This document shows, in pieces, positions 12,275-31,411 of a stretch of DNA of 64,000 nt. Source of the DNA: Providencia sp. (GTDB lineage: Bacteria > Pseudomonadota > Gammaproteobacteria > Enterobacterales > Enterobacteriaceae); assembly GCF_003533305.1 (NCBI RefSeq), contig NZ_DOEH01000026.1, positions 18,349 to 82,348 of the forward strand, given 5' to 3'. The notes under the pieces were generated by a model. The model saw only the letters and a list, made by a program, of their open reading frames with translations, was not told where the DNA came from and ran no database searches. The translations under genes were made by a program, and so were the position numbers. How positions within the stretch are numbered: position 1 is the stretch's first letter; each line of letters begins with the position of its first letter.

Positions 12275-12766
12275 TTATTCAAGATCATTTTGCTCAGTTA
12301 CATTTTTATCGACCTTATTTATATCAACTGAATGACGTTCGATAAGCTCTTGTAGTACTTGTTTTAGCATTTTTCTTTTTCTAGCCCCTAATGGAGCAAG
12401 CACCGCCTGTTCATGTAGCTGAGCCTCAACCAGTAACCCTTCAACTAACTGCATACCACTTGAAGTAACACTCACTAAAGTAACGCGTCGATCACTACCA
12501 CTGTGATTATTATGTCTAATCACATGCCCTTGTTGCTCTAATCGCTGTAGCACTCGGGTAATAGTGGGTTGTTTACTCACTGTTTTTTGTGAAAGCTCAG
12601 TGATCCCCATAGAGCCATTATTGGCAAGGGTTGAAAGTACACGCCATTCTAAGACAGATAAACCATGAGCCTCAACAACCGCATGAAATTCAGATGAAAC
12701 TAACATCCATGCCTGCCCCAATAGGGCAGGTAGATAATTATCAACAAAGACTTTTGAATCTGACAT
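12275..12766 (-). CDS. MarR-family transcriptional regulator of the catabolic operon
   Basis: A 163-residue winged-helix protein. The recognition helix region 'MGITELSQKTVSKQPTITRVLQRLEQQGHV' is followed by the wing 'SGSDRRVTLVSVT' with the conserved Asp-Arg, flanked by helices for dimerisation. The frame extends to 12844, but the ATG at 12766 follows an AGAGG site and gives the usual family length. It is the last gene of the lower catabolic operon. MarR proteins in aromatic-degradation clusters often repress until a pathway intermediate or CoA ester binds. A perfect 20-base palindrome upstream of the operon (23491-23510) is a candidate operator. Confidence 0.85.
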   Translation of the reverse strand: MSDSKVFVDNYLPALLGQAWMLVSSEFHAVVEAHGLSVLEWRVLSTLANNGSMGITELSQKTVSKQPTITRVLQRLEQQGHVIRHNNHSGSDRRVTLVSVTSSGMQLVEGLLVEAQLHEQAVLAPLGARKRKMLKQVLQELIERHSVDINKVDKNVTEQNDLE

Positions 12767-12851
12767 CTCGCCCTCTTGCCTCTCTTGATGCATTATTGCA
12801 TTTGTTACTAGAAGAGTAGCAGAAGGAAACTTAACTCTTAACATAATTTAG

Positions 12852-13607
12852 TTAAAACTTTCCACTAAGTAACGAACCGAAGCCATCAACTCGTGTGTCT
12901 AAACCTAATTTTTTCAACATCATGTAGGTTGTTGCAACCGATGAGGATAATACGGGTAAACCCACTCGATCCTCAATCAACTGAATTGAAGGTAATGATG
13001 GCATTTGTACGCAAGCAGAAGCCACGATGACATCGACGTTAGTATTAAGTTTCTTCGTAATTTCAACCGGTGCTAATGGGTTTTGGCGACCCACTTCCAG
13101 ATTATCGGGGATCTCTAATGAGATACTATCAACAACTTCGATCCCTTCGCTTTCAATATAATCGATCACTAATTGCGTCAACGGCTTCATGTAAGGCGTC
13201 AAAATAGACACTTTTTTCGCACCAATCGCATGTAAGCCATCGACTAATGCACCAGCACTGGTCACAACGGGTGCAGGATGACCGTTATCTACAGTGCGCT
13301 GAAATAAGCGTTTTTCTGATACTCGGTGATACCCTTTACCCATACTCATAATCGCCACTAAACAAGCATAGCCAAGCACATCAACCGCAGCATCTGATAA
13401 TTCAATCGCACAGCGGTCGCTGTCTGAGTCCATTTTAGCGAGTTCATCTTTGGTGACTTTCTGCATACGCATACGGCTAGAATGAAAAGTAAAACGCTCT
13501 GAAAACAACGCTTCACGTGCACGTAAAATGGCAGGGATCTCCGTTTCCATCGTGGTATTTGATGAGGGCACTATCTGCCCGATACGAAAAATGCGTCCGT
13601 GGCTCAT
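12852..13607 (-). CDS. Maleate cis-trans isomerase (Asp/Glu racemase superfamily)
   Basis: A 251-residue protein matching maleate isomerase, which converts maleate to fumarate without cofactor. Two cysteines stand in the expected catalytic surroundings: C82 in 'LGYACLVAIMS' and C199 in 'VIVASACVQMPSL'. The N-terminal segment 'RIGQIVPSSNTTMETEIP' is the family's substrate-binding signature. Its start overlaps the stop of the nitrilase gene by four bases (ATGA type), so the two are translated together. In the inferred pathway it carries out the last step and delivers fumarate to the TCA cycle. A related arylmalonate decarboxylase-like activity cannot be excluded. Confidence 0.85.
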   Translation of the reverse strand: MSHGRIFRIGQIVPSSNTTMETEIPAILRAREALFSERFTFHSSRMRMQKVTKDELAKMDSDSDRCAIELSDAAVDVLGYACLVAIMSMGKGYHRVSEKRLFQRTVDNGHPAPVVTSAGALVDGLHAIGAKKVSILTPYMKPLTQLVIDYIESEGIEVVDSISLEIPDNLEVGRQNPLAPVEITKKLNTNVDVIVASACVQMPSLPSIQLIEDRVGLPVLSSSVATTYMMLKKLGLDTRVDGFGSLLSGKF

Positions 13608-14635
13608 AGGCCTTTCTCCAATGAATTATCATCTGATGGTGTAAATGGGTTAAGTTCATCTTCATCTTGTCCATCATGATGAAAACGAGCAGCCGTTAAA
13701 GGACGACGATTAACCTGTAAATCAAAAATATCAAAACGATTATAGTGTCCGGTAATGTCATGCATTTGGCGTGGTGCAATGCATTTATTTAAATCAATAT
13801 CCGCATAAACAATACCTTCTTGATCAATCAACGGCTCACCGATAACACGACCATCAGGACCAATAATGCCTGAAAATGCACTGTTAGGGCGCGCTAATAA
13901 TTCGCGAGACTCTGGATGTGTTGCCGCCATAGCATCAATAATCTCTGGCGAAACCGTAGAGCAGGAAACAATAGTGAAAACTTTCCCTTCAAAGCAATGA
14001 GCAGAGGCACGCAAACGGATAGCCTCTGCCATATCGTAATCTTTCGGTGCGACAGGTAACGCAATATAGCTGGCGATATGGACGAGCTCACCTTGTGCAA
14101 GCAAAGCAAAACGTGCCAATGTATTGGTATTTTCGCCACAAGCCAAGGCACCCAAGGGGCCAACACTGGTTTGATGAACTTTCAGCGATGAAGCATCACC
14201 ATTTGCCCAGGTTAATTTTTCAGCCCATGTCGGCACCAATTTACGATGACGCCCAAGAATTCGACCTTCATCTGAAATAGTCACTAAGGTGTTATATAAC
14301 GTGGCAACCCCATTAGGATTGCGCTCATTCACGCCAATAACCACATTGATATGATGGCGAGCTGCCGCTTGAGCCACCTTTTGAATTTCAGGCCCCGGTA
14401 CTTCAATTGCTGACTTACACAGTTTTTCAAACCATGGACTGCCATCAATCGGGTTCATGACCCAACTCCAATAAGGATATCCTGAAATAAACACTTCAGG
14501 AAAAGCCACTAATTTTGCACCGTTATCTGCCGCTTCTTCAATCAAGCGACAAACTTTATCTACGGTTGCGTCAGTATCGAGGAAAACGGGGGCGGCCTGC
14601 ACCGCCGCAGCTTTAAATTGCGCTAAATTTAACAT
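13604..14635 (-). CDS. Nitrilase-superfamily carbon-nitrogen hydrolase
   Basis: A 343-residue enzyme with the complete Glu-Lys-Cys triad: E47 in 'AFPEVFISGYPYW', K132 in 'GRHRKLVPTWAE' and C166 in 'LACGENTNTLARF'. The 'GENTN' stretch after the cysteine is typical of aliphatic nitrilases (nitrile to acid plus ammonia). The context is an aromatic ring-cleavage operon, where its neighbours would produce and use maleamate and maleate. I therefore suggest it may act as the amidohydrolase that frees ammonia from maleamate. That is inference, and the sequence branch argues for nitrilase chemistry. Indole-derived nitriles are another possible substrate. It overlaps the isomerase gene by four bases. 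Confidence 0.85.
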   Translation of the reverse strand: MLNLAQFKAAAVQAAPVFLDTDATVDKVCRLIEEAADNGAKLVAFPEVFISGYPYWSWVMNPIDGSPWFEKLCKSAIEVPGPEIQKVAQAAARHHINVVIGVNERNPNGVATLYNTLVTISDEGRILGRHRKLVPTWAEKLTWANGDASSLKVHQTSVGPLGALACGENTNTLARFALLAQGELVHIASYIALPVAPKDYDMAEAIRLRASAHCFEGKVFTIVSCSTVSPEIIDAMAATHPESRELLARPNSAFSGIIGPDGRVIGEPLIDQEGIVYADIDLNKCIAPRQMHDITGHYNRFDIFDLQVNRRPLTAARFHHDGQDEDELNPFTPSDDNSLEKGL

Positions 14636-14665
14636 CAGTCACGCTCCTTGGTGTTGATACTGCAA

Positions 14666-15577
14666 TTAGATTGCAACGACGGGATGGCGTAGCTCGCCAA
14701 TTTTCTCGACGTATGCCTCAATCACATCCCCTGGCCACACCCACTCTTGTGGTGAACGACCCGCACCAACGCCTTCAGGTGTCCCCGTCGCAATAATATC
14801 CCCCGGCTCTAAGGTTATCCCTTTGCTGATATCTGCAATTAATGCATTTACATTGAATAGCATATGACGTGTATTTGAATCTTGTTTAGTCACACCATTT
14901 ACTTTCAAACTGAGATTCAGTGTGTGTGGATCTGGGATCTCATCTGCTGTGACGATACAAGGACCAAAAGGTGCGAAGGTGTCTTGGCCTTTCGAATAAA
15001 TCCATTGACCTGCACGGCGACAATCACGCGCACTCATATCAATCATTAAGCTATAACCAAAGACATAGCTCAGGGCATCATCATGAGAAACGCTTTTTGC
15101 TCGAGTTCCCATTATGACCGCTAATTCAACTTCCCAATCTAACTGTTGAGTAATTGCGCTGTTATGCTCAATCGCATCTCCAGGGCCGATCACGGTTGTT
15201 GGTGGCTTAGAAAAAATGACGGGCTCTTTTGGTAACTCTTTTGAGGTATCAAGCGTTCGGCTAGACTCAGCGACGTGCTCTACATAGTTAAGCCCAATCC
15301 CAAAAATATTTTTTCTCGGACGAGGGATAGGCGCCAAAATCTTCACATTCTGCACCGGCCATGCCGTCCCCGCTGGGAATTGCCCTTGATAAATATTGAG
15401 TAGCTCAGTGCCTGCACGTACTCCTTGTGGACCTAAATCAATAAAATCCAACATGTTATCTGGTAAATACTGCCCTTGCTCTTCGGCCAATCTTGCTAAA
15501 TCAACCACTTGTTGATCAACAATTGCACCTAAACGTGCGGCAGCAGTAATATCTGAACGGTAAGTAATAAGACGCAT
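14666..15577 (-). CDS. Fumarylacetoacetate hydrolase-family enzyme
   Basis: A 303-residue FAH-family protein that hydrolyses a carbon-carbon bond in a diketo acid. The metal site is visible as 'DWEVELAVIMG' (E149, E151) and 'SLMIDMSARD' (D180). Substrate-loop elements are 'FGIGLNYVEHVAES' with the catalytic His at about 101, and 'ATGTPEGVGAGRSPQEWVWPGD' near the end. In the operon it follows the ring-cleaving dioxygenase. It would therefore split the ring-fission product into pyruvate and a C4 acid (maleate or maleamate). A hairpin lies just ahead of its ribosome site. Confidence 0.85.
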   Translation of the reverse strand: MRLITYRSDITAAARLGAIVDQQVVDLARLAEEQGQYLPDNMLDFIDLGPQGVRAGTELLNIYQGQFPAGTAWPVQNVKILAPIPRPRKNIFGIGLNYVEHVAESSRTLDTSKELPKEPVIFSKPPTTVIGPGDAIEHNSAITQQLDWEVELAVIMGTRAKSVSHDDALSYVFGYSLMIDMSARDCRRAGQWIYSKGQDTFAPFGPCIVTADEIPDPHTLNLSLKVNGVTKQDSNTRHMLFNVNALIADISKGITLEPGDIIATGTPEGVGAGRSPQEWVWPGDVIEAYVEKIGELRHPVVAI

Positions 15578-15592
15578 AATTCTTCTCCTTGA

Positions 15593-15612
15593 GTTAGGTT
15601 TACTGACCTAAC
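15593..15612 (-). other. Intercistronic hairpin before the FAH gene
   Basis: GTTAGGT and ACCTAAC pair around a six-base loop between the dioxygenase and FAH genes, directly before the AAGGAG ribosome site. It lacks a T-run and so is unlikely to terminate. It may be a processing or stability element in the polycistronic mRNA. Confidence 0.4.
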
Positions 15613-15715
15613 AAATTTGTCACTTAAAGAAATTCTTTATGTAAATAATCAAAACATACCCAAAATAATTCGCGCCAAGTGGTCATCAACACTTGAAACA
15701 CAACGGGTATAATGA

Positions 15716-16843
15716 TCAGCTGATAATCTTCTGGTGCCCATCATTCTCAGCCAGCGCTTCTTCGTAATAGAGCCCAAGCGAATGCATAACGGGCAAATCG
15801 TTAAAGCAAAATAAACAAGCGTCATCGTTGTTCGAAGTATTGACGTGTTCATGGAACATCCATGATGGCACACAAAAAATATCGCGTTCTTGCCAATCAA
15901 AACGCTGCCCATTAATAATTGAATAACCTTGACCTTTCGCCACTTGATAAATAAAACTTCCCGTATGGCGATGAGCTTTCCCCACAAAGCCAGGACGTAA
16001 AAGTTGCATACTCGCGCCAATCGTTGGCATAACAGGCCCCCCGCTTAGCGGATTGGTGTAATGCATGAGAACATCATCAAAAGGAGAGCCATCCGCCACT
16101 TTTGCAGCACGCTGTAAAGCTTCATAGGTCGGTCCCCACTGATATTTAAACAAGGGCGAATACGGTTTATCCCAACCAATATTATGTGGGCGTAAAGCCG
16201 TACCTGCCCACATGCCAACGGGGTAATCAATTGGCCTTGTCTGTACTTGGTTTAAATCTGGATGAACTTTATAAAAACCCGCTTCCAGCGCATTAACTAA
16301 TGGAATATCTAAACCATCTTGCCAAATACACGGTAAACCATCATCGGCAACGCCATGCTCATGCCAAGTACCATTAGGCGTTAAGACAAAATCGTTAGCT
16401 TCTAACATCATTTTTTGCCCTTCAACGATGGTATAAGCCCCGCGACCCTCCATAATGAAACGCAATGCCGACGATGAATGCGCATGAGCAGATGCTGCTT
16501 CTCCCGGATGCATCACTTGTAAGCCTGAATAGAGCCAGCCCACTGCGGCAGCAACATCTTGTCGCCCTGGGTTATTTAAATAAATCACTCGGCGCCCTGC
16601 TTTTTCTGGTGTAACCAGTTCAACAGAACGTAAAACATGTTCACGTAACTCACGGTAGCGCCACAGCACAGGCACTGATTGCGATTTTGGCTGCCATGGC
16701 TCGATTTTGTTAGCGACAGTCCATAACGCACCTGTTTTTAATGCATCAAGCTCTTTGTAATACGCCACCAGCTCGGGAGTGTCTTCAACATCAGCACGTC
16801 CAGCGACACTTTCTCGGTATTGATCATGGGACTGAGTACTCAT
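15716..16843 (-). CDS. Gentisate 1,2-dioxygenase-like bicupin ring-cleavage enzyme
   Basis: A 375-residue double cupin of the gentisate/salicylate/1-hydroxy-2-naphthoate dioxygenase family, which uses Fe(II) to open ortho-substituted benzoates between C1 and C2. The N-terminal cupin has H120 and H122 ('AHAHSSS') and H161/H163 ('TWHEHG'). The C-terminal cupin repeats the pattern with H291/H293 and H331/H333, so both domains keep possible metal ligands. It lies between the CoA hydroxylase and the FAH hydrolase. Substrate could be gentisate, or 5-hydroxyanthranilate if the upstream steps act on an amino compound; the second fits the cluster better. It does not overlap its neighbours. Confidence 0.85.
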   Translation of the reverse strand: MSTQSHDQYRESVAGRADVEDTPELVAYYKELDALKTGALWTVANKIEPWQPKSQSVPVLWRYRELREHVLRSVELVTPEKAGRRVIYLNNPGRQDVAAAVGWLYSGLQVMHPGEAASAHAHSSSALRFIMEGRGAYTIVEGQKMMLEANDFVLTPNGTWHEHGVADDGLPCIWQDGLDIPLVNALEAGFYKVHPDLNQVQTRPIDYPVGMWAGTALRPHNIGWDKPYSPLFKYQWGPTYEALQRAAKVADGSPFDDVLMHYTNPLSGGPVMPTIGASMQLLRPGFVGKAHRHTGSFIYQVAKGQGYSIINGQRFDWQERDIFCVPSWMFHEHVNTSNNDDACLFCFNDLPVMHSLGLYYEEALAENDGHQKIIS

Positions 16844-16872
16844 AAGGTTTTCCTCCTATCCGGCTAAGGCGC

Positions 16873-19182
16873 TTAGCGGTTTTTTGATTGTTGTAGTAAT
16901 TGTTGGCGACCATATTCATAAGGTGCAGGCCAACTGACTGAATTCCACCCAAGGCGGGCACATTCATGAAGCAACCATGCCGGATCTGCCAGTAATGGAC
17001 GCGATAATGCACATAAATCAGCACGACCTGACGCGATAATGCTATTAACCTGATCGGCATCAGTGATAGCACCAACAGCAATAACAGGTACTGAACCTTC
17101 ATTACGAATACGGTCAGCCATTGGTGTTTGATACATACGCCCATAGACAGGCTGTTGTAATGGTGAAACTTCTCCTGAGGAGCAATCAATCATATCGGCA
17201 CCAGCCTGATGCATGGCTTGCCCAATCAATACCGCTTCATCAACCGTGGTTCCGCCATCAACCCAATCTGTTGCAGAGATACGAACAGAAAGTGGTTTAC
17301 CTTGCGGCCATGCATTTCTGACCGCACGAATCACCGCCAGCGGGAAACGTAAACGATTTTCAAGCGTTCCACCGTAGTTATCCGTACGTTGATTAGTCAG
17401 CGGTGAAATGAAACTTGAAAGTAAATAACCATGACCCGCTTGCAGTTCTAACCAATCAAAACCCGCGCTATCTGCGCATCTTGTTGCCGCAACAAATTGA
17501 TCGATAATTGCAGCCATTTGCTTTTCGTTCAGTTCTGATGGCATCTGAGAAACATCAGGTAAATAAGGCAATGCAGACGCTGAAACCAACGGCCAATTAT
17601 CTTTCGCTAATGGATAGTTTTCTTTTTCCCAACCACGCTGAGTTGAGCCACGACGCCCCGCATGTCCTAACTGTATTCCGATTTTTGCATCCGTTTTTTG
17701 ATGCACAAATTGAGTCACAGCTTTCCATGCGATGACTTGCTCATCATTCCAAATACCCGGGCAACCAAGAGTTGCACGCGCATCGGGTGCGATAGCCGTC
17801 ATTTCAGTCATGATAAGACTTGCCCCACCGAGTGCTCGGCTACCTAAGTGCACCAAATGAAAATCACTGACTACGCCGTTGGTTGCGCAATAAAGCATCG
17901 TTGGCGAGGCAATAACTCGGTTTTTCAGTTCGATATCACGTAAGCGATAAGGCGTGAGTATGGGTGGGATTGGGTTATCAGAAGAGATTACCCCCGATTG
18001 CTGTGCAAACCACTGTTCATAGGTTTTCAACCAATTAGCATCACGAGTACGTAAATTCTCATGAGAAATACGCTGAGAACGGGTTAATAATGAGTATGCA
18101 AATTGTTCTGGTGCTAAGTTTTCATAGCGGCTGACATTTTCAAACCACTCAGTAGAATTACGCGCAGCATTTTGAATTTTAAACACTTCAACGCTACGTA
18201 CTTTTTGATAGTGTGCTAATCCTTTGCGTAAATCACCGTTGGTTGCCTTCAAGCTTTCACAAAGTTCAATCGCATCCTCTAAGGCTAATTTAGTCCCTGA
18301 ACCGATTGAAAAATGTGCAGTATGTGCAGCATCTCCCATCAAGACAACCGGTACATCTTTACCATTTGATGGTGTAGTCCAATGTACCCAGTTATCACAA
18401 ATGACTCGAGGAAAGCGGATCCAAATGGCAGCGCCACGTAAGTGTGCTGCGTTGGCAATCAATTTTTCTCCATCAAGCCAAGGTGCAAATAGCTTTTCAC
18501 AATAAGCAATACCATCCTCTTGTGACATTTGGTCGATACCCGCCTTGAGCCACGTTTCTTCCGTTGTTTCAACGATAAAAGTCGATAACCCTTTTTCAAA
18601 TTGATAGGCGTGGACTTGGAACCAACCATGTTCATTTTCAGCGAACAAAAAAGTAAATGCATCGAAGATCTTCTTAGTTCCTAGCCAAACAAAGCGGCAA
18701 CGGCGCTGATCGATATCAGGCTTAAATACATTTTCATAGCGTGTACGTACTGCACTATTGATCCCATCGGATGCAATCAGTAGATCCGCATCATACTGAA
18801 GTGCAATTTCTTGATCGTCCGTAACTAAGGTTTCAAAAACGAGTTCAACGCCGACTTCAATACATCTATCTTGTAAAATATTGAGTAATTTTTTACGTCC
18901 AATCCCAATGAAACCATGACCACCACTGCGATTGCAGGTACCTTTGAAATGAATATCGATATCATCCCAATGACTAAATTCTGCGGAGATAGTTTCTGCG
19001 CAAACTGGATCGGCTTTGCGCAAATTACTGAGCGTTGCATCAGAGAACACGACACCCCAACCAAAAGTGTCATAAGGACGGTTACGTTCAACGACCACCA
19101 CACGGTTTTGTGGATTTTGCAATTTCATCAGCAACCCGAAATAAAGCCCTGCGGGACCGCCGCCAATACAAACGATATTCAT
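16873..19182 (-). CDS. Bifunctional anthraniloyl-/salicylyl-CoA 5-hydroxylase with OYE-type domain
   Basis: A 769-residue fusion. The N-terminal ~390 residues are a flavoprotein monooxygenase: dinucleotide fold 'GGGPAG' at residues 7-12, 'LIASDGINSAVR', and the FAD motif 'LMGDAAHTAHFSIGSG'. The C-terminal part (about 405-760) is an old-yellow-enzyme reductase, with 'LKNRVIASPTM', 'LGHAGRRG' and 'RTDNYGGTLENRLRF'. The same architecture is known from 2-aminobenzoyl-CoA monooxygenase/reductase of Azoarcus and from salicylyl-CoA 5-hydroxylases. It would hydroxylate C5 of the CoA ester. The Azoarcus enzyme also reduces the ring, which would conflict with the dioxygenase next door. The adjacent thioesterase and dioxygenase imply that an aromatic 5-hydroxy product is released. 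Confidence 0.85.
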   Translation of the reverse strand: MNIVCIGGGPAGLYFGLLMKLQNPQNRVVVVERNRPYDTFGWGVVFSDATLSNLRKADPVCAETISAEFSHWDDIDIHFKGTCNRSGGHGFIGIGRKKLLNILQDRCIEVGVELVFETLVTDDQEIALQYDADLLIASDGINSAVRTRYENVFKPDIDQRRCRFVWLGTKKIFDAFTFLFAENEHGWFQVHAYQFEKGLSTFIVETTEETWLKAGIDQMSQEDGIAYCEKLFAPWLDGEKLIANAAHLRGAAIWIRFPRVICDNWVHWTTPSNGKDVPVVLMGDAAHTAHFSIGSGTKLALEDAIELCESLKATNGDLRKGLAHYQKVRSVEVFKIQNAARNSTEWFENVSRYENLAPEQFAYSLLTRSQRISHENLRTRDANWLKTYEQWFAQQSGVISSDNPIPPILTPYRLRDIELKNRVIASPTMLYCATNGVVSDFHLVHLGSRALGGASLIMTEMTAIAPDARATLGCPGIWNDEQVIAWKAVTQFVHQKTDAKIGIQLGHAGRRGSTQRGWEKENYPLAKDNWPLVSASALPYLPDVSQMPSELNEKQMAAIIDQFVAATRCADSAGFDWLELQAGHGYLLSSFISPLTNQRTDNYGGTLENRLRFPLAVIRAVRNAWPQGKPLSVRISATDWVDGGTTVDEAVLIGQAMHQAGADMIDCSSGEVSPLQQPVYGRMYQTPMADRIRNEGSVPVIAVGAITDADQVNSIIASGRADLCALSRPLLADPAWLLHECARLGWNSVSWPAPYEYGRQQLLQQSKNR

Positions 19183-19210
19183 GGAATGTCTCCTTTGTGA
19201 CTTTGTGCCG

Positions 19211-19630
19211 TTACACCGGTTGCTGGGTTAAGGCGTTATAAAGCGCTTCAGGTATCGCTATCGACTGATGCGTTTCTAATGAAGTTGTGACATAGGTTTG
19301 CGTAACTTGCATACGCAATTCACCGCTTAAACTGGTACAACTTTGGCGTAACGTTATCGATTTACGACCAATACGTTCTACCTGTAATTCAAGCTGCACG
19401 TTATCGCCCATGCGACTAACCGCTTTAAATTCAGCTTCTAGATGAACCGTAGGTAATCCAAAGCGTTGATCAAGGATGTATCCAGCAAAACCTTCGGGGA
19501 TCAACTCATCAATCCAACGCTCTAATAGATTGTTAAACATCACGAAATATTGTGGATAAAACACAATTCCCGCCGGATCACACTCAGAGAAATGAATTTT
19601 ATGTGGTCGAGTAAATTTCAGCAGACTCAT
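19211..19630 (-). CDS. 4-hydroxybenzoyl-CoA-thioesterase-family acyl-CoA thioesterase
   Basis: A 139-residue hotdog-fold protein. The catalytic motif 'HFSECDPAGIVFYPQYF' contains D18, the nucleophile or base of the 4HBT family. Length is normal. Placed between the 2-oxoacid oxidoreductase and the CoA-dependent hydroxylase, it most likely hydrolyses the hydroxylated aryl-CoA to the free acid for ring cleavage. The exact aryl group is not visible in the sequence. Confidence 0.85.
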   Translation of the reverse strand: MSLLKFTRPHKIHFSECDPAGIVFYPQYFVMFNNLLERWIDELIPEGFAGYILDQRFGLPTVHLEAEFKAVSRMGDNVQLELQVERIGRKSITLRQSCTSLSGELRMQVTQTYVTTSLETHQSIAIPEALYNALTQQPV

Positions 19631-19640
19631 GATATTTTCC

Positions 19641-21200: not shown

Positions 21201-21210
21201 ATAGGCCTCT

Positions 21211-23409: not shown

Positions 23410-23490
23410 TTTAACCTCACCAATCAACATCAGAATGTTTTTATCTTTTTTGTGTTTCTTATTTGTATCTTTTTTGTTACGCATAGGTCA

Positions 23491-23510
23491 ATCCATGATT
23501 AATCATGGAT
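23491..23510. promoter_or_regulatory. Perfect palindromic operator candidate for the lower catabolic operon
   Basis: ATCCATGATTAATCATGGAT is a perfect 20-base inverted repeat about 82 bases upstream of the iorA start. The half-site with its flank (AATCATGGATATT, 23501-23513) recurs at 23777-23789. The size and symmetry suit a MarR-family dimer, and a marR gene closes the same operon. AraC proteins usually prefer direct repeats, so MarR is the likelier binder. Confidence 0.5.
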
Positions 23511-24248: not shown

Positions 24249-24267
24249 TAAACTGGAGGTATCTCCG

Positions 24268-25257
24268 ATGCTGAGCAACACAACACCCATAGAAAACCAA
24301 CTCTGTTCTTCAGAACGGTTACTCTTTACCTCTGCTGACCCTGAAGAAATAAAATCGATGGTAGGCCGAGTCATGAAGCCCCATCAGTTTCATTTACTTA
24401 ATCCACATCAACGCCTTGATGCGCGTATGCACTATATTCCAATGGGCGATATTTCCCTTAGCCGTTTAAGATATGGCGCTGATGTTTGTATTGTCCCGGG
24501 CCAACTTCAAGATTTTTTTCTCGTACAAATGCCCCTCTCAGGAAGTGCTATTATTGAAAGTGGGGGAAAACATCTAGAATCCAATCCACAAATGGCGTCA
24601 ATACTCAGTCCTGAAGAATCCACAGCAATGCGTTGGAATAGCGATAACGACCAATTCATGCTGCGCATTTCACGGTCACTACTAGAACGTTCTTTGGTTG
24701 GACAACTCGGTCATACCTTAGATAAGCCTTTAGTTTTTGAACTAGGGTTTGCTTGGCAGTCTTGCATTGCGTGGCGCACACTAATGAATTATTTGATTGA
24801 ATGCGCGACAAAAACGCCCGATCTACTCCAACACAAATTGATCGCTACTCAAGTAGAACAACTAGTTTCAGTCACATTATTATCTACTCATATTCATAAT
24901 TACGCCGAAGACTCGGGCTTAAGAAGAGCGACAATTCGCCCTCGCCATGTTCGCCGTGTCCAAGAATATTTAGAAGCTCATGCCCATGAACCTATTACGG
25001 TTGAGCAACTTGCACATATTGCAGGGGTCAGTTTACGTAGCTTATATGCTGGATTTAAAGAGTTTTTAGATATCAGTCCGATGCAATATTTACGTGATTT
25101 ACGAATGGAGCGAGTACGCGCTGAATTGTTATCTGGGGAAGCCACAAATGTCACTGGTGTCGCATTGCGCTGGGGCTTTGCACATATGGGCAGATTTAGC
25201 GCCGAATATAAACATCGTTATGGCGAAACACCAAGCCAAAGTATGAAAAAAGCCTAA
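24268..25257 (+). CDS. AraC/XylS-family activator of the catabolic island
   Basis: A regulator of about 329 residues. The N-terminal ~200 residues form the cupin-like AraC-binding domain seen in regulators of aromatic catabolism ('LRYGADVCIVPGQLQDFFLVQMPLSGSA'). The C-terminal ~100 residues hold two helix-turn-helix motifs: 'EPITVEQLAHIAGVSLRSLYAGFKE' and 'VTGVALRWGFAHMGRFSAEYKHRYGE'. The frame extends to 24202, but that part lies inside a palindromic repeat. The ATG at 24268 has a GGAGG site eight bases upstream. It stands alone on the plus strand between the two minus-strand operons and is the natural candidate activator for both. The inducer is unknown. Confidence 0.9.
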   Translation: MLSNTTPIENQLCSSERLLFTSADPEEIKSMVGRVMKPHQFHLLNPHQRLDARMHYIPMGDISLSRLRYGADVCIVPGQLQDFFLVQMPLSGSAIIESGGKHLESNPQMASILSPEESTAMRWNSDNDQFMLRISRSLLERSLVGQLGHTLDKPLVFELGFAWQSCIAWRTLMNYLIECATKTPDLLQHKLIATQVEQLVSVTLLSTHIHNYAEDSGLRRATIRPRHVRRVQEYLEAHAHEPITVEQLAHIAGVSLRSLYAGFKEFLDISPMQYLRDLRMERVRAELLSGEATNVTGVALRWGFAHMGRFSAEYKHRYGETPSQSMKKA

Positions 25258-25350
25258 TTAATCCAAATAGCTAATTATTATTAATACAAAATATCCATAA
25301 GCTAATTAACAAATCATTAAATTATTATTAATCAGAGAAACTCTTCACCA

Positions 25351-25390
25351 GAAAGCACCGCACCATGATCATTTACAGGGCGGTGCTTTC
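25351..25390. terminator. Bidirectional hairpin terminator
   Basis: GAAAGCACCGC and GCGGTGCTTTC form a perfect 11-base stem around an 18-base loop. It lies between the ends of the AraC gene (plus) and the outer-membrane protein gene (minus), so it can end transcription from both sides, although T-runs are short. Confidence 0.7.
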
Positions 25391-25410
25391 TCATTAATAA
25401 CTGAAAATAA

Positions 25411-26307
25411 TTAGAATGGAATTGAAGCCTTTAGATAAATTTGTGAACCTTCTGGACGATTTCTTACACCAAAATCTTTCTCCCACTTAGCCGTAAACAA
25501 CCAGCCTTGTGGATTCGCATAGCGAATTGATGGTCCAATCGCATAGGCTCGAGCCTTACCTTGAGCTGAATTGTCACCGCTATCATCCGTTGTTTGCCAG
25601 AAGGTATAGCCACCAATACCCGCCACCCAACCATTACCAAATCCCCAACCTAATGCATAATCGGTATGAAAGGCCTGCCCTGAGCGGGTTTTCGTATCAT
25701 TGTTTTTGAAATTAAAGTCATACATCATTTTTAAATCGGCATTGATTCCAACGGGTGGAATATAGCTAATTGCCCAAACTGGCTGTAGCGCCCAGTAATT
25801 CTTACCTAAGCTTGATGGATCTGTTTTACTGTATTTTCCTGTTGGCGCATAAGCATCTAAGCCAACCACATAATGTAAATCAGCGGATGGATGAAAACCC
25901 AATGCAGGACCAAAAGTAACATCCCCCAAGCCTCGACTGGTATCTTTTTTCCCTGCCGCTTTTGCGGTCACATCTAACAATGGGACGATAGTATGAAAAG
26001 CCAGATCGCCACCCAGTATCTTTTGATCAGTAACCCAAATTAAACGCGGCGCTAAAACATTCACATTCACACTAAAACCCGGAACGGGTATTTTATCGCC
26101 TTTGTTATCTCGCACACTGTCATAGTGCGCATTACCGCCGTACATCAATACATGAACTCCTGGCGGTGGCAGCGCACCTGACATAAAATTCTCTAATCCG
26201 TCAGGATAGATCCCTAATCCTCCCCCTTCGGTTGCAACAGCACCCAATGAAAGTGCGCCGAGACACGAACCTGCTACCAGCTTGCTGATTGTTTTCTTAT
26301 TCATCAT
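25411..26307 (-). CDS. Outer-membrane transporter of aromatic-degradation type (MetA/SphA-like)
   Basis: A secreted protein of about 298 residues. It has a signal peptide ('KLVAGSCLGALSLGAVA') followed by a beta-strand-rich body ending in 'IYLKASIPF', whose final phenylalanine is the outer-membrane insertion signal. It resembles the family of barrels often encoded with phenol or other aromatic degradation genes and thought to take up hydrophobic substrates ('GLGDVTFGPALGFHPSADLHYVVGLDAYAPTGKY'). The frame runs to 26319, but an AGGA site favours ATG codons at 26307 or 26304. It is last in the upper operon and could be the entry pore for indole or a related compound. Confidence 0.75.
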   Translation of the reverse strand: MMNKKTISKLVAGSCLGALSLGAVATEGGGLGIYPDGLENFMSGALPPPGVHVLMYGGNAHYDSVRDNKGDKIPVPGFSVNVNVLAPRLIWVTDQKILGGDLAFHTIVPLLDVTAKAAGKKDTSRGLGDVTFGPALGFHPSADLHYVVGLDAYAPTGKYSKTDPSSLGKNYWALQPVWAISYIPPVGINADLKMMYDFNFKNNDTKTRSGQAFHTDYALGWGFGNGWVAGIGGYTFWQTTDDSGDNSAQGKARAYAIGPSIRYANPQGWLFTAKWEKDFGVRNRPEGSQIYLKASIPF

Positions 26308-26379
26308 TTTTCCTGCCATAGTGGGTTGTCTTACTGTGTGTGCTTTGCTTGTTATTGTGCATTTCCATTGCTTATTTGA

Positions 26380-27993
26380 TTATGTTCTACGTTTTACAGC
26401 TAATTTCTGAGCAACTAAATATCCTGAGCCGCCACCAAGACCGGGACCTGGATGAGTTGAGGCTCCAATATGAAATAGATTTTTCACTGCGGTTTGATGT
26501 GTTTTTGTTTGCCCTGATGCAGCAAAAGGACGTAACCAGAAAAATTGATCAGGTGAGCAGGTTCCTGAATAAGGATCGCCACCAACCAGATTACAGTTGT
26601 AATTCTCTAAATCTGCTGGAGAAATTACTTTTCGTCCAACAATTAAGGAAGTAAAACCAGGCATGACCAACTCTAAACGTTGCTGGATTCTATCCGCGAC
26701 TGCTTCACGGACAGTTTCATTCCAACGACCATCCGCTGGAACTGTAATTTCCCCTGCCGCATCACCTTTTAATTGACGAGGTAATTCTTGCATCTGGATC
26801 CATAAGATCCACCCACCATCAGGGGCTCTACTTGGATCTAATGCGGTTGGCTGGCCAATACCAAAAGTCGGCCTGTCAGGTAAATAACCATTATTCGCTT
26901 GTGTTACCGATAGGCAAACTTGTTCCATGCTTTCCGTAAAATGCACTAAAGGCACATTGCGCAATTCAGGGTTACACCATGGTGGCGGCGCACTCAATGC
27001 AAAATGGATTTGCATACCTGCTCGCCCATAACGGTAACCTTTTGCGCTTTGCATCACTTGGGGAGAAACATCATCAAGCAATGAGCCATACAACTGAGTC
27101 GGCGTCACATTGCACACCACACTTTCAGTGGCATTGAACACTTCACCATTTGCAATGACACCCGTCGCTCGACTATTTTTTCCACTGCCTTGAGTGATAA
27201 TTTTCTCAACATGCATTCCCGTTTGTAATTGACCGCCGTGCTCTTCAATGACTTTGGCAAAAGCCTCGACAATACGGAAACTTCCCCCTTTAACAACCGG
27301 CATTCCACCTGCAACAACCGCGGCAAAAGTAAGCTTACCAATCAACGCTGAACTAGCTTCATCAGGCCCGAGTCCAGTGTGCAACACCCATGGAGCCATC
27401 AGCGCGCGACTAAAATCATGCTGTAATTCACGTTCAGACCAACGACGAAAACTTTCAACACCCGACTTAGCGAAATCAAGCAACCCATCAACGCCACGTT
27501 TACGCCACTCGGAAAACAATAGCTTTAACATGCCACCGCTATACGGATTCTGTCCTAACAAACCAAAAGTTAGCGCCGCATCTTCTGTAAATAATTTATC
27601 GGCCATCCGACGAAAGACCAAACCATCACCAGGAGCAATACTATCGAGTTGCTTAGCCGCTTCAGCAATATCACGTTTTAAAGCAATTGATTTACCATCC
27701 GGTTGAACCAATCCGGTTGAATAATCACATTGCGCAAATTCCAAACCCTGTTTTTTTAAATAGGGTTCGAGCTCTTGATAACCAGGACTGCCCACAAATA
27801 AGGAATACCAGCAAGAAAGCAGGTCATGGGTATAGCCTTCAAATAAATTTTCTGTACGAATACAGCCACCTAAGCTTTCATTTCGCTCAAGCACTAAAAC
27901 CGATTTTCCGCGTACTGCCAATAAAGCGGCACACATTAATGAGTTCATTCCACTGCCAACAACAATGACTTGTGGATCGGAGAATGTTGCCAT
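26380..27993 (-). CDS. FAD-dependent oxidoreductase, phytoene-desaturase-like
   Basis: A 537-residue flavoprotein. The N-terminal dinucleotide fold 'VIVVGSGMNSLMCAALLAVRGKSVLVLERNE' and the C-terminal FAD motif 'FHIGASTHPGPGLGGGSGYLVAQ' define the NAD(P)/FAD-dependent amine-oxidase/phytoene-desaturase group. The gene is three bases after the isatin-hydrolase-like gene and is clearly part of the upper operon. In an indole pathway an oxidation such as dioxindole or indoxyl to isatin is needed, and this enzyme could supply it. The family also desaturates lipids, so the substrate is open. Confidence 0.8.
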   Translation of the reverse strand: MATFSDPQVIVVGSGMNSLMCAALLAVRGKSVLVLERNESLGGCIRTENLFEGYTHDLLSCWYSLFVGSPGYQELEPYLKKQGLEFAQCDYSTGLVQPDGKSIALKRDIAEAAKQLDSIAPGDGLVFRRMADKLFTEDAALTFGLLGQNPYSGGMLKLLFSEWRKRGVDGLLDFAKSGVESFRRWSERELQHDFSRALMAPWVLHTGLGPDEASSALIGKLTFAAVVAGGMPVVKGGSFRIVEAFAKVIEEHGGQLQTGMHVEKIITQGSGKNSRATGVIANGEVFNATESVVCNVTPTQLYGSLLDDVSPQVMQSAKGYRYGRAGMQIHFALSAPPPWCNPELRNVPLVHFTESMEQVCLSVTQANNGYLPDRPTFGIGQPTALDPSRAPDGGWILWIQMQELPRQLKGDAAGEITVPADGRWNETVREAVADRIQQRLELVMPGFTSLIVGRKVISPADLENYNCNLVGGDPYSGTCSPDQFFWLRPFAASGQTKTHQTAVKNLFHIGASTHPGPGLGGGSGYLVAQKLAVKRRT

Positions 27994-27996
27994 AAC

Positions 27997-28779
27997 TCAC
28001 CCCACAAGTGCGAGTACACGTAAAGGACTACCAGAACCGCCTTCAATTTTCAAAGGCGCAGCCACAATTACCACTCCTGTTGCAGGCAGTTGATCGAGAT
28101 TTTTCAAACATTGCAGGCCATATTTGTTATTGCCATGCATTAAAGTGTGGCATGGATAAGGCACAGGCCAAGCGTAGGATTGCCCTGCGTCGGTATTGAT
28201 AGTTTCAACACCAAAACCTTTTACATCACGCTGATGAATAAGCCACTCGACCGCCTCTTGAGAAGGCCCCGGCGTATGAGCGCCGTCTTCACGCATATTG
28301 ACATACGCTTCTGGATTATCTGATTTTTTCGACCAATCAGTTCTAAACAAAACCCAAGCATTTGATGGAATTTTTCCGTGTTTAACTTCCCACTGTTGTA
28401 AGAAATCGACAGTCAGTACCCAATCCGAATTTTGTGCCACTTCTTTACTCGCATCAACAACCACAGCTGGGGCAACAAAGTGGTGCACAGGGATGGTATC
28501 AACGGTGTTATTGGCTTGATCTTTACCACTTATCCAATGAATCGGGGCGTCAAAGTGGGTGCCAGTATGTTCACCACAACTAAAATTATTCCAATACCAT
28601 GCAGGGCCATTGTCATCATAGCGGGAGATTTGCTCCATACTAAATGACCATACCTGTCCGAATTGCTCCGGCAGTTGCAGCGCAGGAAAAGACGGTGATA
28701 GCGTCTGTGTCAGGTCGATAACCTGAATATTGCCTTGTTGTAATTGCGTGGCAAATGACATTAATAATTGCTGATCCAT
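27997..28779 (-). CDS. Isatin hydrolase-like cyclase-family enzyme
   Basis: A 260-residue member of the cyclase/kynurenine-formamidase-like family. It has the Mn/Zn-binding signature H-x-G-T-H-x-D-x-P-x-H complete at residues 71-81 ('HTGTHFDAPIH'). Length and the surrounding 'GPAWYWNNFSCGEHTG' and 'GFGVETINTDAGQSYAWPVPYPCH' segments resemble isatin hydrolase, which opens the isatin lactam to isatinate. The context next to an indole-type monooxygenase supports that over other cyclase-family reactions. The gene ends three bases before the FAD oxidoreductase. Confidence 0.8.
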   Translation of the reverse strand: MDQQLLMSFATQLQQGNIQVIDLTQTLSPSFPALQLPEQFGQVWSFSMEQISRYDDNGPAWYWNNFSCGEHTGTHFDAPIHWISGKDQANNTVDTIPVHHFVAPAVVVDASKEVAQNSDWVLTVDFLQQWEVKHGKIPSNAWVLFRTDWSKKSDNPEAYVNMREDGAHTPGPSQEAVEWLIHQRDVKGFGVETINTDAGQSYAWPVPYPCHTLMHGNNKYGLQCLKNLDQLPATGVVIVAAPLKIEGGSGSPLRVLALVG

Positions 28780-28793
28780 AGTGTCTCCTGCGC

Positions 28794-29330
28794 CTAGAGC
28801 GCGTCATGTAAAGCAGTAAAAGCACCGCTATGAAAAACTAAAGGTTTACCCGTTTCACTGCCGATACGGCGAACATGTCCAACCATTAATAGATGGTCAC
28901 CAATGTGATCCTGTTTGTGATTTTCACAAACTAAAGTGACGATAGCCCCATGTAATGCAGGTAAACCTTCTGGCGTAATATGAATGGCAACATTCTCAAA
29001 TTTATTTTCAATACGAGGATTCGCAAAACGCATGGCTAGCTCTTGGTGATCCTTACCCAAAATATTAATAGTGAAATGCTGGCAATCACGAAATGCTGCT
29101 AAGTTCGGCGAATGGTTAACTAAACTCCATAACACTAGCGGAGGATCGAGTGAAAGGGATGCAAATGAGTTAATGGTCAACCCAACATCACGACCATCCG
29201 CAGTACGCGTCGTGACGATTGCCACCCCTGTCGGGTAGCAACCAAGTAAATTGCGCAACGTTTTTGATTCAAATTCGGTATGACCCCATTGGCTGTCACA
29301 CATTAGCGTATCCTCTGCAATCATAGACAT
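28794..29330 (-). CDS. Flavin reductase component of the monooxygenase
   Basis: A 178-residue flavin reductase of the HpaC/StyB type ('LLGCYPTGVAIVTTRTADGRDVGLTINSFASLSLDPPLVLWSL' region, residues ~28-70, then 'HFTINILGKDHQELAMRFA' and 'HLLMVGHVRRI'). It would provide reduced FAD to the StyA-like oxygenase encoded 15 bases upstream. Such two-component systems start styrene and indole oxidation. Two Met codons precede the conserved region, so the start may be a few residues later. Confidence 0.88.
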   Translation of the reverse strand: MSMIAEDTLMCDSQWGHTEFESKTLRNLLGCYPTGVAIVTTRTADGRDVGLTINSFASLSLDPPLVLWSLVNHSPNLAAFRDCQHFTINILGKDHQELAMRFANPRIENKFENVAIHITPEGLPALHGAIVTLVCENHKQDHIGDHLLMVGHVRRIGSETGKPLVFHSGAFTALHDAL

Positions 29331-29345
29331 ACTGATTCCTTCCCG

Positions 29346-30590
29346 TTAAGCGCGGGCTTCTTCCATCATTTGAGATTGAATATAGGCTTCGCAGGCTTGC
29401 CCATCTTTCCACCATGGGAATAATACTGGCGGATAGTTAAAAGCATTCGCGATAGTATGGGCGAGTGATGGCAATTGTTGCGCCGCACCTAATAAGTGCA
29501 AAATATGAGGCTCTGGCGGGGCTAATAACGAATTAGTCCATTCCACAACATTGCGGCCGTATTTCCAGAATTGCTCGAATGTTTCAGTCATCCACTCCGC
29601 GGTATAAGCCTTGTCTCCATGCGCTAAAATCGCGTCATAATAGACTTTGCACGCTTTGGTGGCATTGTTAGAACCTTGTCCTGTGAGTGGATCATTGGTC
29701 ACTAATGCATCCCCTAATCCGAACACTACCTTGCCCGATGGCAATGTCAGAACAGGTTTACGTACCGTTGGTGCAAAACGACCCGCCAGAATACCGTTAT
29801 CATCGGTCAACTCGATATTGCGGCAACGATCCGCTTCCCAAGGTAAATATGTGTTGAGGATCTTTTTGCTATAAGCCAAATGTTCTTGTGGAGTACGCGC
29901 TTCATTCCATTGATCCATCGGCCCCCCCGGAACGCCTTCAAATACCATGATGTGACAATCGCCACTATTAGTAAGTGAGGGAAACACAAAATATTCGCCA
30001 ATACCGGGGATCAAATTAAAGGAGACTTGTGAATATTCTGGCGTTGGTAACATGCCATGAACATAAGTCAGCGCTAATGCGCGCTGTGGCTTATCATAGG
30101 GTGAGCGAGATGCATCACGCTCGAGAAGTTTGACTATCTCGCCTTTACCACCTGCCAGTATCACTAAATCATGAGTTTCAGCTAAACGCTCAAGCTCAGC
30201 AACACCCACATCTTCGATGCGCAAATTACCGCCACGAGCGGCAAATAGCTCCATCCAGTAAGGCATTTTGATTCGTTGATCAACTGCCTGTGCATAGTTA
30301 TCTAAGCGAGAACGCCATGTGATCGCTTTTTCACCCGGTTTTTCTGGGTGGGGAACGGTAAAGCCAATACCTTCAACGGGTGGGCATTCGTCTTCCCAAA
30401 AGTTAATTCCAAGGTCACGCTCAAATTGCAGTGAAATATCAAACATACATTGGCTAGACATCACGCGACCATTTTTGACATCATCCGGTGTACGGTTAGT
30501 GGCGACGGTGACTTCATAACCTTTGTTCAAGAGGCCTAAAGCCAATGGCATACCCGCTTGACCACCACCTACGATTGCAATACGACGCAT
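29346..30590 (-). CDS. StyA/indole-oxygenase-like FAD monooxygenase
   Basis: A 414-residue single-component-size flavoprotein oxygenase. It has the N-terminal FAD fold 'RRIAIVGGGQAGMPLALGLLNKGYEV' and 'LVILAGGKGEIVKLLERD'. The second FAD region is 'KVVFGLGDALVTNDPLTGQGSNNATK', typical of styrene monooxygenase StyA and the indole oxygenase (IifC type) of Acinetobacter. With the reductase next door it would epoxidise or dihydroxylate indole at C2-C3. The SDR encoded upstream and the isatin-hydrolase-like enzyme downstream fit the following steps. Styrene remains an alternative, but no styrene-oxide isomerase is present. Confidence 0.85.
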   Translation of the reverse strand: MRRIAIVGGGQAGMPLALGLLNKGYEVTVATNRTPDDVKNGRVMSSQCMFDISLQFERDLGINFWEDECPPVEGIGFTVPHPEKPGEKAITWRSRLDNYAQAVDQRIKMPYWMELFAARGGNLRIEDVGVAELERLAETHDLVILAGGKGEIVKLLERDASRSPYDKPQRALALTYVHGMLPTPEYSQVSFNLIPGIGEYFVFPSLTNSGDCHIMVFEGVPGGPMDQWNEARTPQEHLAYSKKILNTYLPWEADRCRNIELTDDNGILAGRFAPTVRKPVLTLPSGKVVFGLGDALVTNDPLTGQGSNNATKACKVYYDAILAHGDKAYTAEWMTETFEQFWKYGRNVVEWTNSLLAPPEPHILHLLGAAQQLPSLAHTIANAFNYPPVLFPWWKDGQACEAYIQSQMMEEARA

Positions 30591-30625
30591 AGTTTATTCC
30601 TCAATGAAATTAAAATGATGATGTC

Positions 30626-31411
30626 TTATTCAGCAAGACGGGGAATTGCGGGTTTAGCCTGTTCAGGCCCCATAGCGGAGTAACCGCCATCGACAGCGTA
30701 ATCTGCGCCAGTAACAAAACTTGCCAGATCAGAAAGTAGGAAAGCCACCACCTGAGCAATTTCTTCAGGGTCGCCAACACGTTTTAATAGGTGATAATCA
30801 GCCGCAACGCGGTCTGTTTTTTGACGATCGCCACCCGTAATTTCATCCATCACTCGAGACCATGTCCAACCGGGAGATACCGAATTCACTCGTATTCCCT
30901 CGGCGGCATAATCCATCGCTTGGCTGCGTGTCACTTCAAGTAAGGTTGATTTTGATGCGGGATAAAGCCAACGGCCTGTCTGGGCGACAGAAGATGAAAT
31001 ACTGGTAAAATTAACAATCGCGCCTTTGCCTGCTTTTACAAAATGCGCTTTAGCAAATTGTGCCGCCATGACAGCACTAACAACGTTAATATTCAAAGCA
31101 GTGAGCCAATCCTGCCTTGTGGATGACTGGCCTTCATCAAGATAAGTGGCAGCCAGATTAACTAAAAAATCGAGTTGACCATATTTTTGCGCAACTCTAT
31201 CAATACCTTGTTTAAGCTGTTGATCATCAGTAATATCAACCGCTAAAAAATCGATACTAGGCTCAGACTGAGCGACTTTTTCGCCATTAATTCTATCGAT
31301 ATCAAAAATGGTGACTTTAACACCATAAGAGCTCAATATTTTCGCCACTGTTGCGCCAATCTTAGTTGCGCCTCCGGTGACAATTGCAACTTTCCCCTGC
31401 AAACCTTTCAT
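30626..31411 (-). CDS. Short-chain dehydrogenase/reductase of the upper pathway
   Basis: A 261-residue SDR with the cofactor motif 'VTGGATKIGATVAK', 'LVNLAAT' (NNAG-type motif), and the catalytic Ser with 'YPASK' (Tyr-x-x-x-Lys). The C-terminus 'FVTGADYAVDGGYSA' is typical. The frame runs to 31465, but an ATG at 31411 follows a GAGGG site and gives normal length. It is the first gene of the upper operon. In the Acinetobacter iif cluster an SDR oxidises the first oxygenation product and prevents indigo formation. The same role is plausible here. Confidence 0.85.
   Translation of the reverse strand: MKGLQGKVAIVTGGATKIGATVAKILSSYGVKVTIFDIDRINGEKVAQSEPSIDFLAVDITDDQQLKQGIDRVAQKYGQLDFLVNLAATYLDEGQSSTRQDWLTALNINVVSAVMAAQFAKAHFVKAGKGAIVNFTSISSSVAQTGRWLYPASKSTLLEVTRSQAMDYAAEGIRVNSVSPGWTWSRVMDEITGGDRQKTDRVAADYHLLKRVGDPEEIAQVVAFLLSDLASFVTGADYAVDGGYSAMGPEQAKPAIPRLAE

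Follow-up and report, generated by a model that had tools for sequence, protein, structure and literature searches.

Gene content of the locus

The window analysed here is a stretch of 64 000 nucleotides of contig NZ_DOEH01000026.1 from a Providencia sp. genome of 4.39 Mb, whose closest named relatives by IorA are P. alcalifaciens and P. rettgeri (92 %). It contains two operons, on either side of an AraC-type regulator gene, that are predicted to encode the degradation of indole through isatinate. A preliminary description of this DNA had named 15 enzyme, porin and MarR genes around the AraC gene; open reading frames were found for every named gene, in the order given and from the families named, and all 16 are intact in the ORF listing of the window. 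The upper operon comprises six genes (31465–25411) with intergenic gaps of 3 to 60 bp and the lower operon nine genes (23484–12275) with gaps of −4 to 138 bp. All genes of the locus lie on the minus strand with the sole exception of the AraC gene. Families were assigned by profile searches (Pfam, and NCBIfam/TIGRFAM with their cut-offs) and by matches to solved structures, as follows.

30626..31465, minus: short-chain dehydrogenase/reductase (SDR), IifB/GS-B type (NF006121, 398 bits, cut-off 294; GS-B by gene order)
29346..30590, minus: flavin-dependent indole monooxygenase, oxygenase part, GS-C type (PF17885; 7z4x, 585 bits)
28794..29330, minus: flavin reductase partner, GS-D type (PF01613; StyB/FerA families below cut-off)
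27997..28779, minus: isatin hydrolase, GS-A type, isatin to isatinate (5nmp, 451 bits; PF04199)
26380..27993, minus: flavin adenine dinucleotide (FAD) oxidoreductase, CrtI/amine-oxidase type, GS-O type (PF01593, PF13450; PDB matches weak only)
25411..26319, minus: outer-membrane porin-like protein, GS-E type (PF13557, Phenol_MetA_deg)
24265..25257 (longest frame from 24202), plus: AraC-type regulator, GS-R type, divergent from the lower operon (PF14525; NF041686, AndR-like)
21211..23484, minus: IorA, thiamine diphosphate (ThDP) and iron–sulfur (Fe-S) subunit (PF02775; TIGR03336, 288 bits, cut-off 651)
19641..21200, minus: IorB, POR domain and DUF6537 (NF006179, 712.5 bits, cut-off 348; PF01558 and PF20169)
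19211..19630, minus: 4HBT thioesterase, predicted to hydrolyse 5-hydroxyanthraniloyl-coenzyme A (CoA) (PF13279)
16873..19182, minus: ACMR-type aryl-CoA 5-hydroxylase (NF006101, 1279.7 bits, cut-off 1078)
15716..16843, minus: bicupin ring-cleavage dioxygenase (TIGR02272, 305 bits, cut-off 442; 3bu7, 539 bits)
14666..15577, minus: FAH-family hydrolase, predicted to convert maleamoylpyruvate to maleamate and pyruvate (PF01557; maleylpyruvate hydrolase 6jvv among the matches)
13604..14635, minus: nitrilase-superfamily enzyme, predicted maleamate amidase (PF00795; 6zby, 235 bits)
12852..13607, minus: maleate cis-trans isomerase, Amdase/EutA-type (4fq7, 323 bits)
12275..12844, minus: MarR-type regulator at the end of the lower operon (HpaR family, 73.5 bits, under the cut-off)

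The SDR, with a likely start at the ATG at 31411, is predicted to convert indole-2,3-dihydrodiol to 3-hydroxyindolin-2-one. The StyA-like oxygenase scored far higher against 7z4x, presumably an indole monooxygenase, than against the styrene monooxygenase 3ihm (144 bits). The metal-site motif of the solved isatin hydrolase 5nmp is preserved in the alignment, as are both cysteine stretches of 4fq7 in the maleate isomerase. The aryl-CoA 5-hydroxylase consists of a flavin monooxygenase fused to an old-yellow-enzyme domain, and its family NF006101 is named salicylyl-CoA 5-hydroxylase/oxidoreductase. IorA probably starts about 25 codons inside its longest frame, since its Providencia relatives have 732 residues. 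The AraC-type regulator reached 196 bits against the AndR-like family, under the cut-off of 350.

A predicted pathway from indole to fumarate

It is somewhat more probable than not that the two operons encode one pathway for complete indole use in Providencia, running via isatinate, anthraniloyl-CoA, 5-hydroxyanthranilate and maleamate. The flavin monooxygenase pair would oxidize indole and the SDR would yield 3-hydroxyindolin-2-one (dioxindole), which the FAD oxidoreductase would convert to isatin, and isatin hydrolase would open isatin to isatinate, that is, 2-aminophenylglyoxylate. IorAB would then combine isatinate with CoA by oxidative decarboxylation, giving anthraniloyl-CoA and passing the electrons to ferredoxin, so that neither ATP nor an aryl-CoA ligase would be needed; no aryl-CoA ligase is present among the genes of the two operons. 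The ACMR-type enzyme would hydroxylate anthraniloyl-CoA at C5, the thioesterase would free 5-hydroxyanthranilate, and the cupin enzyme would cleave this between C1 and C2 to maleamoylpyruvate. The FAH-family hydrolase would split maleamoylpyruvate into pyruvate and maleamate, after which the nitrilase-family enzyme would release ammonia to give maleate and the isomerase would convert maleate to fumarate. From isatinate onward, all steps are inferred.

What would be new here is the lower-operon route from isatinate, the upper half being already known. More tentatively, and with a probability somewhat short of even, the lower operon may represent an undescribed route in which activation by IorAB is free of ligase and ATP and gives reduced ferredoxin, maleamate is hydrolysed by a nitrilase-family amidase, and the same IorAB step is the function of IadA/IadB of auxin degradation, joining indole and auxin catabolism. 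No paper joining isatinate, IorAB and anthraniloyl-CoA, and none describing the lower operon, was found in the open-access literature, most subscription papers lying outside this search.

Correspondence of the upper operon to published clusters

The combined route had been put forward as undescribed in an enterobacterium. No description of the lower operon was found, but the upper half has been published and expressed from P. rettgeri GS-2, whose GS(A-R) cluster contains, by description and gene-number order, the same seven genes as the upper operon and AraC gene (PMC9871250). In that work GS-C produced indigo from indole in vitro (section 3.4), GS-D was the flavin reductase of GS-C, GS-B halted indigo formation and GS-A removed an isomer of Tyrian purple that the authors traced to isatin. 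Indole oxidation and removal of an isatin-derived product have, for this counterpart operon, already been shown by others (PMC9871250).

The sections of the GS-2 paper considered here do not treat the nine-gene lower operon and propose a catechol route through N-formylanthranilate, anthranilate, salicylate and catechol, largely from library-matched masses, with comparison to a standard stated in section 3.5 for isatin only (PMC9871250). The ion at 164.0355 and its fragments at 120.0455 and 92.0506 agree with the masses calculated for C8H7NO3 and for its loss of CO2 and of CO2 plus CO. Isatinate has the same formula and fits this ion equally well; as GS-A is the counterpart of isatin hydrolases, isatinate may be its simpler reading.

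The FAD oxidoreductase was said to occur only in Providencia (PMC9871250). However, homologues (38–90 %) were detected in 18 other loci, drawn from loci chosen for IorA, hydroxylase or dioxygenase, and every one of the 18 also contained isatin hydrolase and IorA. This association suggests that the FAD oxidoreductase converts dioxindole to isatin. The iif cluster of Acinetobacter and relatives has the IifC/IifD oxygenase pair and the IifB SDR in common with the upper operon (PMC6221969, PMC12538310), but forms anthranilate from dioxindole with the cofactor-free oxygenase IifA (PMC6221969), where the Providencia locus has the FAD oxidoreductase, isatin hydrolase and IorAB. No IifA is present among the operon genes, to which this check was confined and each of which belongs to another family.

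Linkage of isatin hydrolase and IorAB

The preliminary description had proposed that the gene set be sought in other genomes. Across 398 evenly sampled Pseudomonadota genomes, IorA (E≤1e-100) was detected in 29 and isatin hydrolase (E≤1e-45) in 25. Both were present in 23 genomes, as counted by hand from the two match lists, with IorA only in six, hydrolase only in two and neither in 367 (Fisher test, P=1e-29). The two genes were on a single contig within 30 kb in 20 of these 23 genomes and within 10 kb in 17. The IorA-only genomes carry IorA at 51–54 % identity in five cases and 63 % in the sixth (G801); one of the five, G304, has a second IorA copy at 79–81 % on a 105-kb contig. Among the named loci, which are the best 80 of 582 confirmed candidates and biased to close relatives, isatin hydrolase was found in 41 stretches; those without it comprised 22 cut and 17 uncut stretches.

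A tree of IorA was reconstructed from 107 of 121 rows (120 loci and the window), 14 rows, including the distant-clade candidate L138, being excluded by a length filter. The 59 rows linked to isatin hydrolase were spread through a clade of 101 rows that includes Acidobacteriota and Actinomycetota, while no linkage was found in the six rows of the sister clade. The linkage label changed 22 times on this tree versus 35 in shuffles. Judged from the tree, the linkage is often gained or lost, in part owing to cut contigs. All 101 rows of the large clade share an unchanged ThDP motif and twelve cysteines. In the distant loci L079, L080, L113 and L115, isatin hydrolase lies immediately before IorA. 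Ten frames neighbouring IorA of the distant clade encoded transporters, a LysR regulator, a molybdopterin-type dehydrogenase, a ketopantoate-reductase type and an AMP-binding enzyme, with three frames lacking a family. In Pseudomonas gessardii L015, a 470-residue frame (3881–5290) without a Pfam match (E 1e-5) directly precedes isatin hydrolase.

IorAB homologues also occur as IadA/IadB in the iad auxin loci (PMC9613470, PMC12633357). IadI is annotated there as kynurenine formamidase, and the Variovorax loci examined hold an isatin hydrolase homologue at 62–63 %. The iad pathway opens with a Rieske oxygenase (IadDE) acting on indoleacetate, whereas the window genome has no PF00848 match. According to a preprint, a C8H7NO3 compound other than N-formylanthranilate builds up in locus-deletion strains that express iadC-K2, a region of nine genes (PMC12633357). 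If this compound is isatinate, its build-up without IadAB would match what the proposed pathway predicts.

On co-occurrence and gene neighbourhood, the stable association is that of isatin hydrolase with IorAB, not that of the two whole operons. The idea that isatinate is converted to anthraniloyl-CoA is partly supported by these data, having gained circumstantial support and a wider setting.

Possible replacement of the CoA ligase

Hydroxylase loci were tabulated for all 73 places in the 398-genome sample, of which the window is one, and for the plasmid loci L112 and L114, added by hand. Of the hydroxylase loci lacking IorA, 50 of 59 had an AMP-binding ligase within 10 kb, versus 4 of 16 of those with IorA (Fisher test, P=1.1e-5), eight of the 16 being from one genus and two of the 16, but none of the 59, being the hand-added plasmids. 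Collapsing to genera, with a mixed genus counted unfavourably, gave P=0.0023, and adding L196, which has neither IorA nor ligase and was left out of the table, gave 50 of 60 (P=2e-5). Two of the 12 ligase-free IorA loci are truncated, G604 at the end of its contig and L114 at that of the stretch examined. Within the DNA examined, the full lower operon (IorA, thioesterase, hydroxylase, dioxygenase and FAH; the window, L012–L017, L026, L114, L116 and L145) was accompanied by a ligase in none of 11 cases and by a nitrilase in all 11. The hydroxylase match of one further locus, L233, was confined to the C-terminal half.

The window genome encodes seven AMP-binding enzymes: one is generic, one is FadD11-like with a score under the cut-off, and the others are of the FadD, acetate, carnitine, MenE and acyl-ACP types. 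None of the seven passed the benzoate-CoA-ligase cut-off (TIGR02262), the generic one staying a candidate. The 2-aminobenzoyl-CoA pathway, which continues by ring reduction and beta-oxidation, uses a CoA ligase, in contrast to the IorAB, thioesterase and ring-cleavage dioxygenase of the lower operon. The two have in common the monooxygenase/reductase fusion (ACMR) acting on anthraniloyl-CoA (Langkau 1995, cited in PMC6221969).

Predicted ring cleavage and release of nitrogen

Dioxygenases among plasmid sequences formed two groups, with the window bicupin in a clade separate from gtdA. Gentisate dioxygenases cut the C1–C2 bond of their substrate. A gentisate-like cleavage of 5-hydroxyanthranilate would turn the amino-bearing carbon into a carboxamide, and the C4 product after the FAH step would be maleamate. 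An amidase would be required before the maleate isomerase, since the FAH-type hydrolase would yield maleamate. The nitrilase gene adjoins the isomerase gene, and a Glu, a Lys and a Cys, presumably with the residue roles of nitrilase-superfamily enzymes, line up with nitrilases (6zby).

Among 25 loci of this dioxygenase clade (at least 57 % identity), a nitrilase of at least 60 % was present in 17, a distant one in three and none in five; all 17 loci with a close nitrilase also carry IorA. Five loci with a dioxygenase of at most 46 % identity had one distant nitrilase match. Three annotated gtdA loci contained FAH and maiA without a nitrilase, one of them (L205) with an isochorismatase-family gene nearby. 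The nitrilase-family gene fits best as a maleamate amidase, feeding maleamate to maleate and then to fumarate. These distributions support, without proving, a release of nitrogen after ring cleavage. The lower nicotinate/nicotine pathway likewise passes through maleamate, maleate and fumarate, with a maleamate amidase of another hydrolase family. The last steps predicted for the present locus are the same, and its isomerase matches 4fq7, but the predicted amidase here is a nitrilase-superfamily enzyme.

Rid-family genes were observed near ring-cleavage or IorAB genes in L198, L197 and L112, where a close nitrilase is absent or distant, and possibly represent an alternative means of nitrogen removal.

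Weighing of alternative explanations

Several observations weigh against the proposed pathway. IorA lacked an isatin hydrolase match in 6 of 29 genomes. The solved structure nearest to the bicupin, 3bu7, was deposited as a gentisate 1,2-dioxygenase, the nitrilase resembles nitrile-acting enzymes, and no nitrilase was found in 5 of the 25 dioxygenase-clade loci (L196, L122, L127, L198 and, on a cut contig, L087). Anthranilate is also formed from iadC-K2, a region named without iadAB (PMC12633357), so some conversion occurs without IadAB, and the GS-2 masses were reported as anthranilate, salicylate and catechol (PMC9871250). IorAB had been offered as the explanation for the missing ligase; this agrees with the full lower operons and with the frequency of ligases in loci without IorA, but among the loci that have both IorA and hydroxylase, 4 of the 16 sampled and 5 of the 16 named ones contain a ligase at a distance of up to 10 kb; most of these named loci, which lie outside the table (11 of 16 without ligase), have one short flank. 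In G804 the ligase is about 20 kb away. Where IorA and hydroxylase occur without the dioxygenase, ligases were found in 4 of 12 sampled and 5 of 9 named loci, a mixed picture indicating that IorAB is not always a ligase substitute; as a guess, these ligases are in part the acyl-CoA synthetase of the iad locus. A stricter rule, that a ligase never accompanies IorAB, was rejected when longer flanks revealed ligases in G866, G737 and G740 and the ligase-free count fell from 15 to 12 of 16.

An unlikely alternative shares the entry via isatinate to anthraniloyl-CoA and supposes that the amino group is lost before cleavage, that the cupin cleaves gentisate to maleylpyruvate and that the nitrilase is otherwise employed. 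An Alcaligenes strain reportedly degrades indole with gentisate as an intermediate (Claus and Kutzner 1983, cited in PMC6221969), Alcaligenes faecalis L017 carries IorAB, thioesterase, hydroxylase, dioxygenase, FAH and nitrilase, and both the deposition of 3bu7 and the salicylyl-CoA name of the hydroxylase family would agree with it. However, no deaminase is present among the operon genes, the cupin misses the gentisate dioxygenase equivalog cut-off (TIGR02272), and a close nitrilase is present in most loci of this dioxygenase clade, unlike those with other dioxygenases and the three gtdA loci. Less probable still, IorAB could be a general arylpyruvate (indolepyruvate/phenylpyruvate) ferredoxin oxidoreductase, its proximity to isatin hydrolase reflecting shared regulation of tryptophan-derived compounds and anthranilate being made otherwise. 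The family names agree with this, as does the anthranilate formed from iadC-K2 (PMC12633357), and IorAB has the features of the indolepyruvate ferredoxin oxidoreductase type, namely the ThDP site, the Fe-S cysteines and the POR domain. Yet IorA falls well below the indolepyruvate oxidoreductase alpha equivalog cut-off (TIGR03336), isatin hydrolase directly precedes IorA in the four distant loci named above, Ruegeria L110 alone among the annotated IorA loci examined has an aminotransferase grouped with these genes, and the other operon enzymes require an aryl-CoA that an arylpyruvate would not supply. A plain arylpyruvate enzyme was accordingly rejected, or at least weakened, as a poor match with the neighbouring genes.

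It is very improbable that indole is degraded by the published catechol route and that the lower operon serves another substrate. The LC-MS assignments in GS-2 favour this (PMC9871250, section 3.5), but the 164.0355 ion fits isatinate as well, and the two operons are together in, or jointly absent from, the genomes of the genus, as described below. Furthermore, neither Ring_hydroxyl_A (PF00848) nor Dioxygenase_C (PF00775) had a match in the window genome (E 0.001, with no search for extradiol enzymes or of the GS-2 genome), so that a ring-hydroxylating dioxygenase alpha subunit and an intradiol dioxygenase, and with them AntABC- and CatA-type enzymes, are absent by these models, each of which was found in 4 of 14 named control genomes.

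Distribution of the two operons

Of 24 genomes of the window's genus, 18 contain both the oxygenase and IorA, used as markers of the two operons, and six contain neither. In the 18 genomes the markers lie on one contig and strand, at most 13.2 kb apart from start to start. The preliminary description had counted a usual separation of the operons as evidence against a single route; in the loci examined outside Morganellaceae they are separate, which half bears out that objection, but they are together in these 18 genomes, and the link of isatin hydrolase with IorAB is stable. In loci with up to 10 kb of flank, an indole oxygenase was found near IorAB only in Providencia and Xenorhabdus kozodoii. 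The Providencia and Xenorhabdus IorA rows sit among Burkholderiales rows, which fits horizontal acquisition.

The novelty proposed for the locus as an island in an enterobacterium is reduced by the wide distribution of the lower module. Burkholderiales, Alphaproteobacteria, Actinomycetota and Acidobacteriota all include members with the lower operon or its core of IorAB and isatin hydrolase, and, as a further point against novelty, the lower modules examined outside Morganellaceae are not beside an indole oxygenase. In a Caballeronia plasmid (L114) the lower operon is accompanied by isatin hydrolase, porin and transporter genes but by no indole oxygenase, and P. gessardii L015 has porin, isatin hydrolase, FAD oxidoreductase and as much of the lower operon as its contig covers. 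Tsukamurella L112 has hydroxylase, thioesterase, a nitrilase-related gene, isatin hydrolase, IorAB, FAD oxidoreductases and SDR, with a ligase and a small cupin in place of the bicupin. In Ruegeria L110 the hydroxylase is missing from a set of IorAB, thioesterase, nitrilase, dioxygenase, FAH and isomerase, and an isatin hydrolase is about 21 kb off on the same replicon.

Marine and soil alphaproteobacterial plasmids (L200, L201, L202 and L110) carry IorAB, thioesterase, nitrilase, dioxygenase and FAH with no hydroxylase in the stretch examined; their entering substrate may already be 5-hydroxylated, or the hydroxylase may be elsewhere. In L111 (Hydrogenophaga plasmid pBPS33-2, a conjugative plasmid), and also in L146, IorAB lies between aniline-type genes (Rieske dioxygenase subunits, glutamine-synthetase-like, amidotransferase) and IS1071, with no isatin hydrolase in the stretch. 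L087, on a contig filed as a Bifidobacterium breve metagenome-assembled genome, carries IorAB and a dioxygenase of this clade and groups with Actinomycetota rows; the label may be a binning error. One protein cluster labelled E. coli was rejected as an E. coli copy, as blastn gave no matches in 20 395 E. coli records.

Two neighbouring regions of the window were also recorded. About 3 kb beyond the lower operon, a plus-strand gene (8614–9234) encodes a flavin-reductase-like protein (PF01613, without an NCBIfam match; nearest solved structure 3bpk). In L245, a 57 % homologue is adjacent to the lower operon at its MarR end, and homologues of 30–39 % lie near the same-clade dioxygenase in L197, L198, L199, L178, L122 and L127; by this neighbourhood the protein may belong to the pathway. 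Directly beside the upper operon (31664–36714) lie a SoxR-type MerR regulator (TIGR01950 above cut-off) and a resistance-nodulation-division (RND) efflux pair, for which export of toxic indole-derived products is possible.

Biological significance

The genome carries a tryptophanase-like gene (TIGR02617, 753 bits, cut-off 825.8; NF009709 above cut-off; tyrosine phenol-lyase, 556 bits), so that indole formation is likely. A 2018 review lists as open whether isatin is a true indole intermediate and which genes encode the gentisate-type branch (PMC6221969); the locus makes both questions testable with one operon. The proposed pathway also offers a reaction for IadA/IadB, marker genes of the iad loci, to which no reaction is assigned in the parts of PMC9613470 and PMC12633357 considered here. 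A full degradation route in a probable indole producer is relevant to signalling between species and, if the pathway is true, an indole-producing enterobacterium could consume its own signal.

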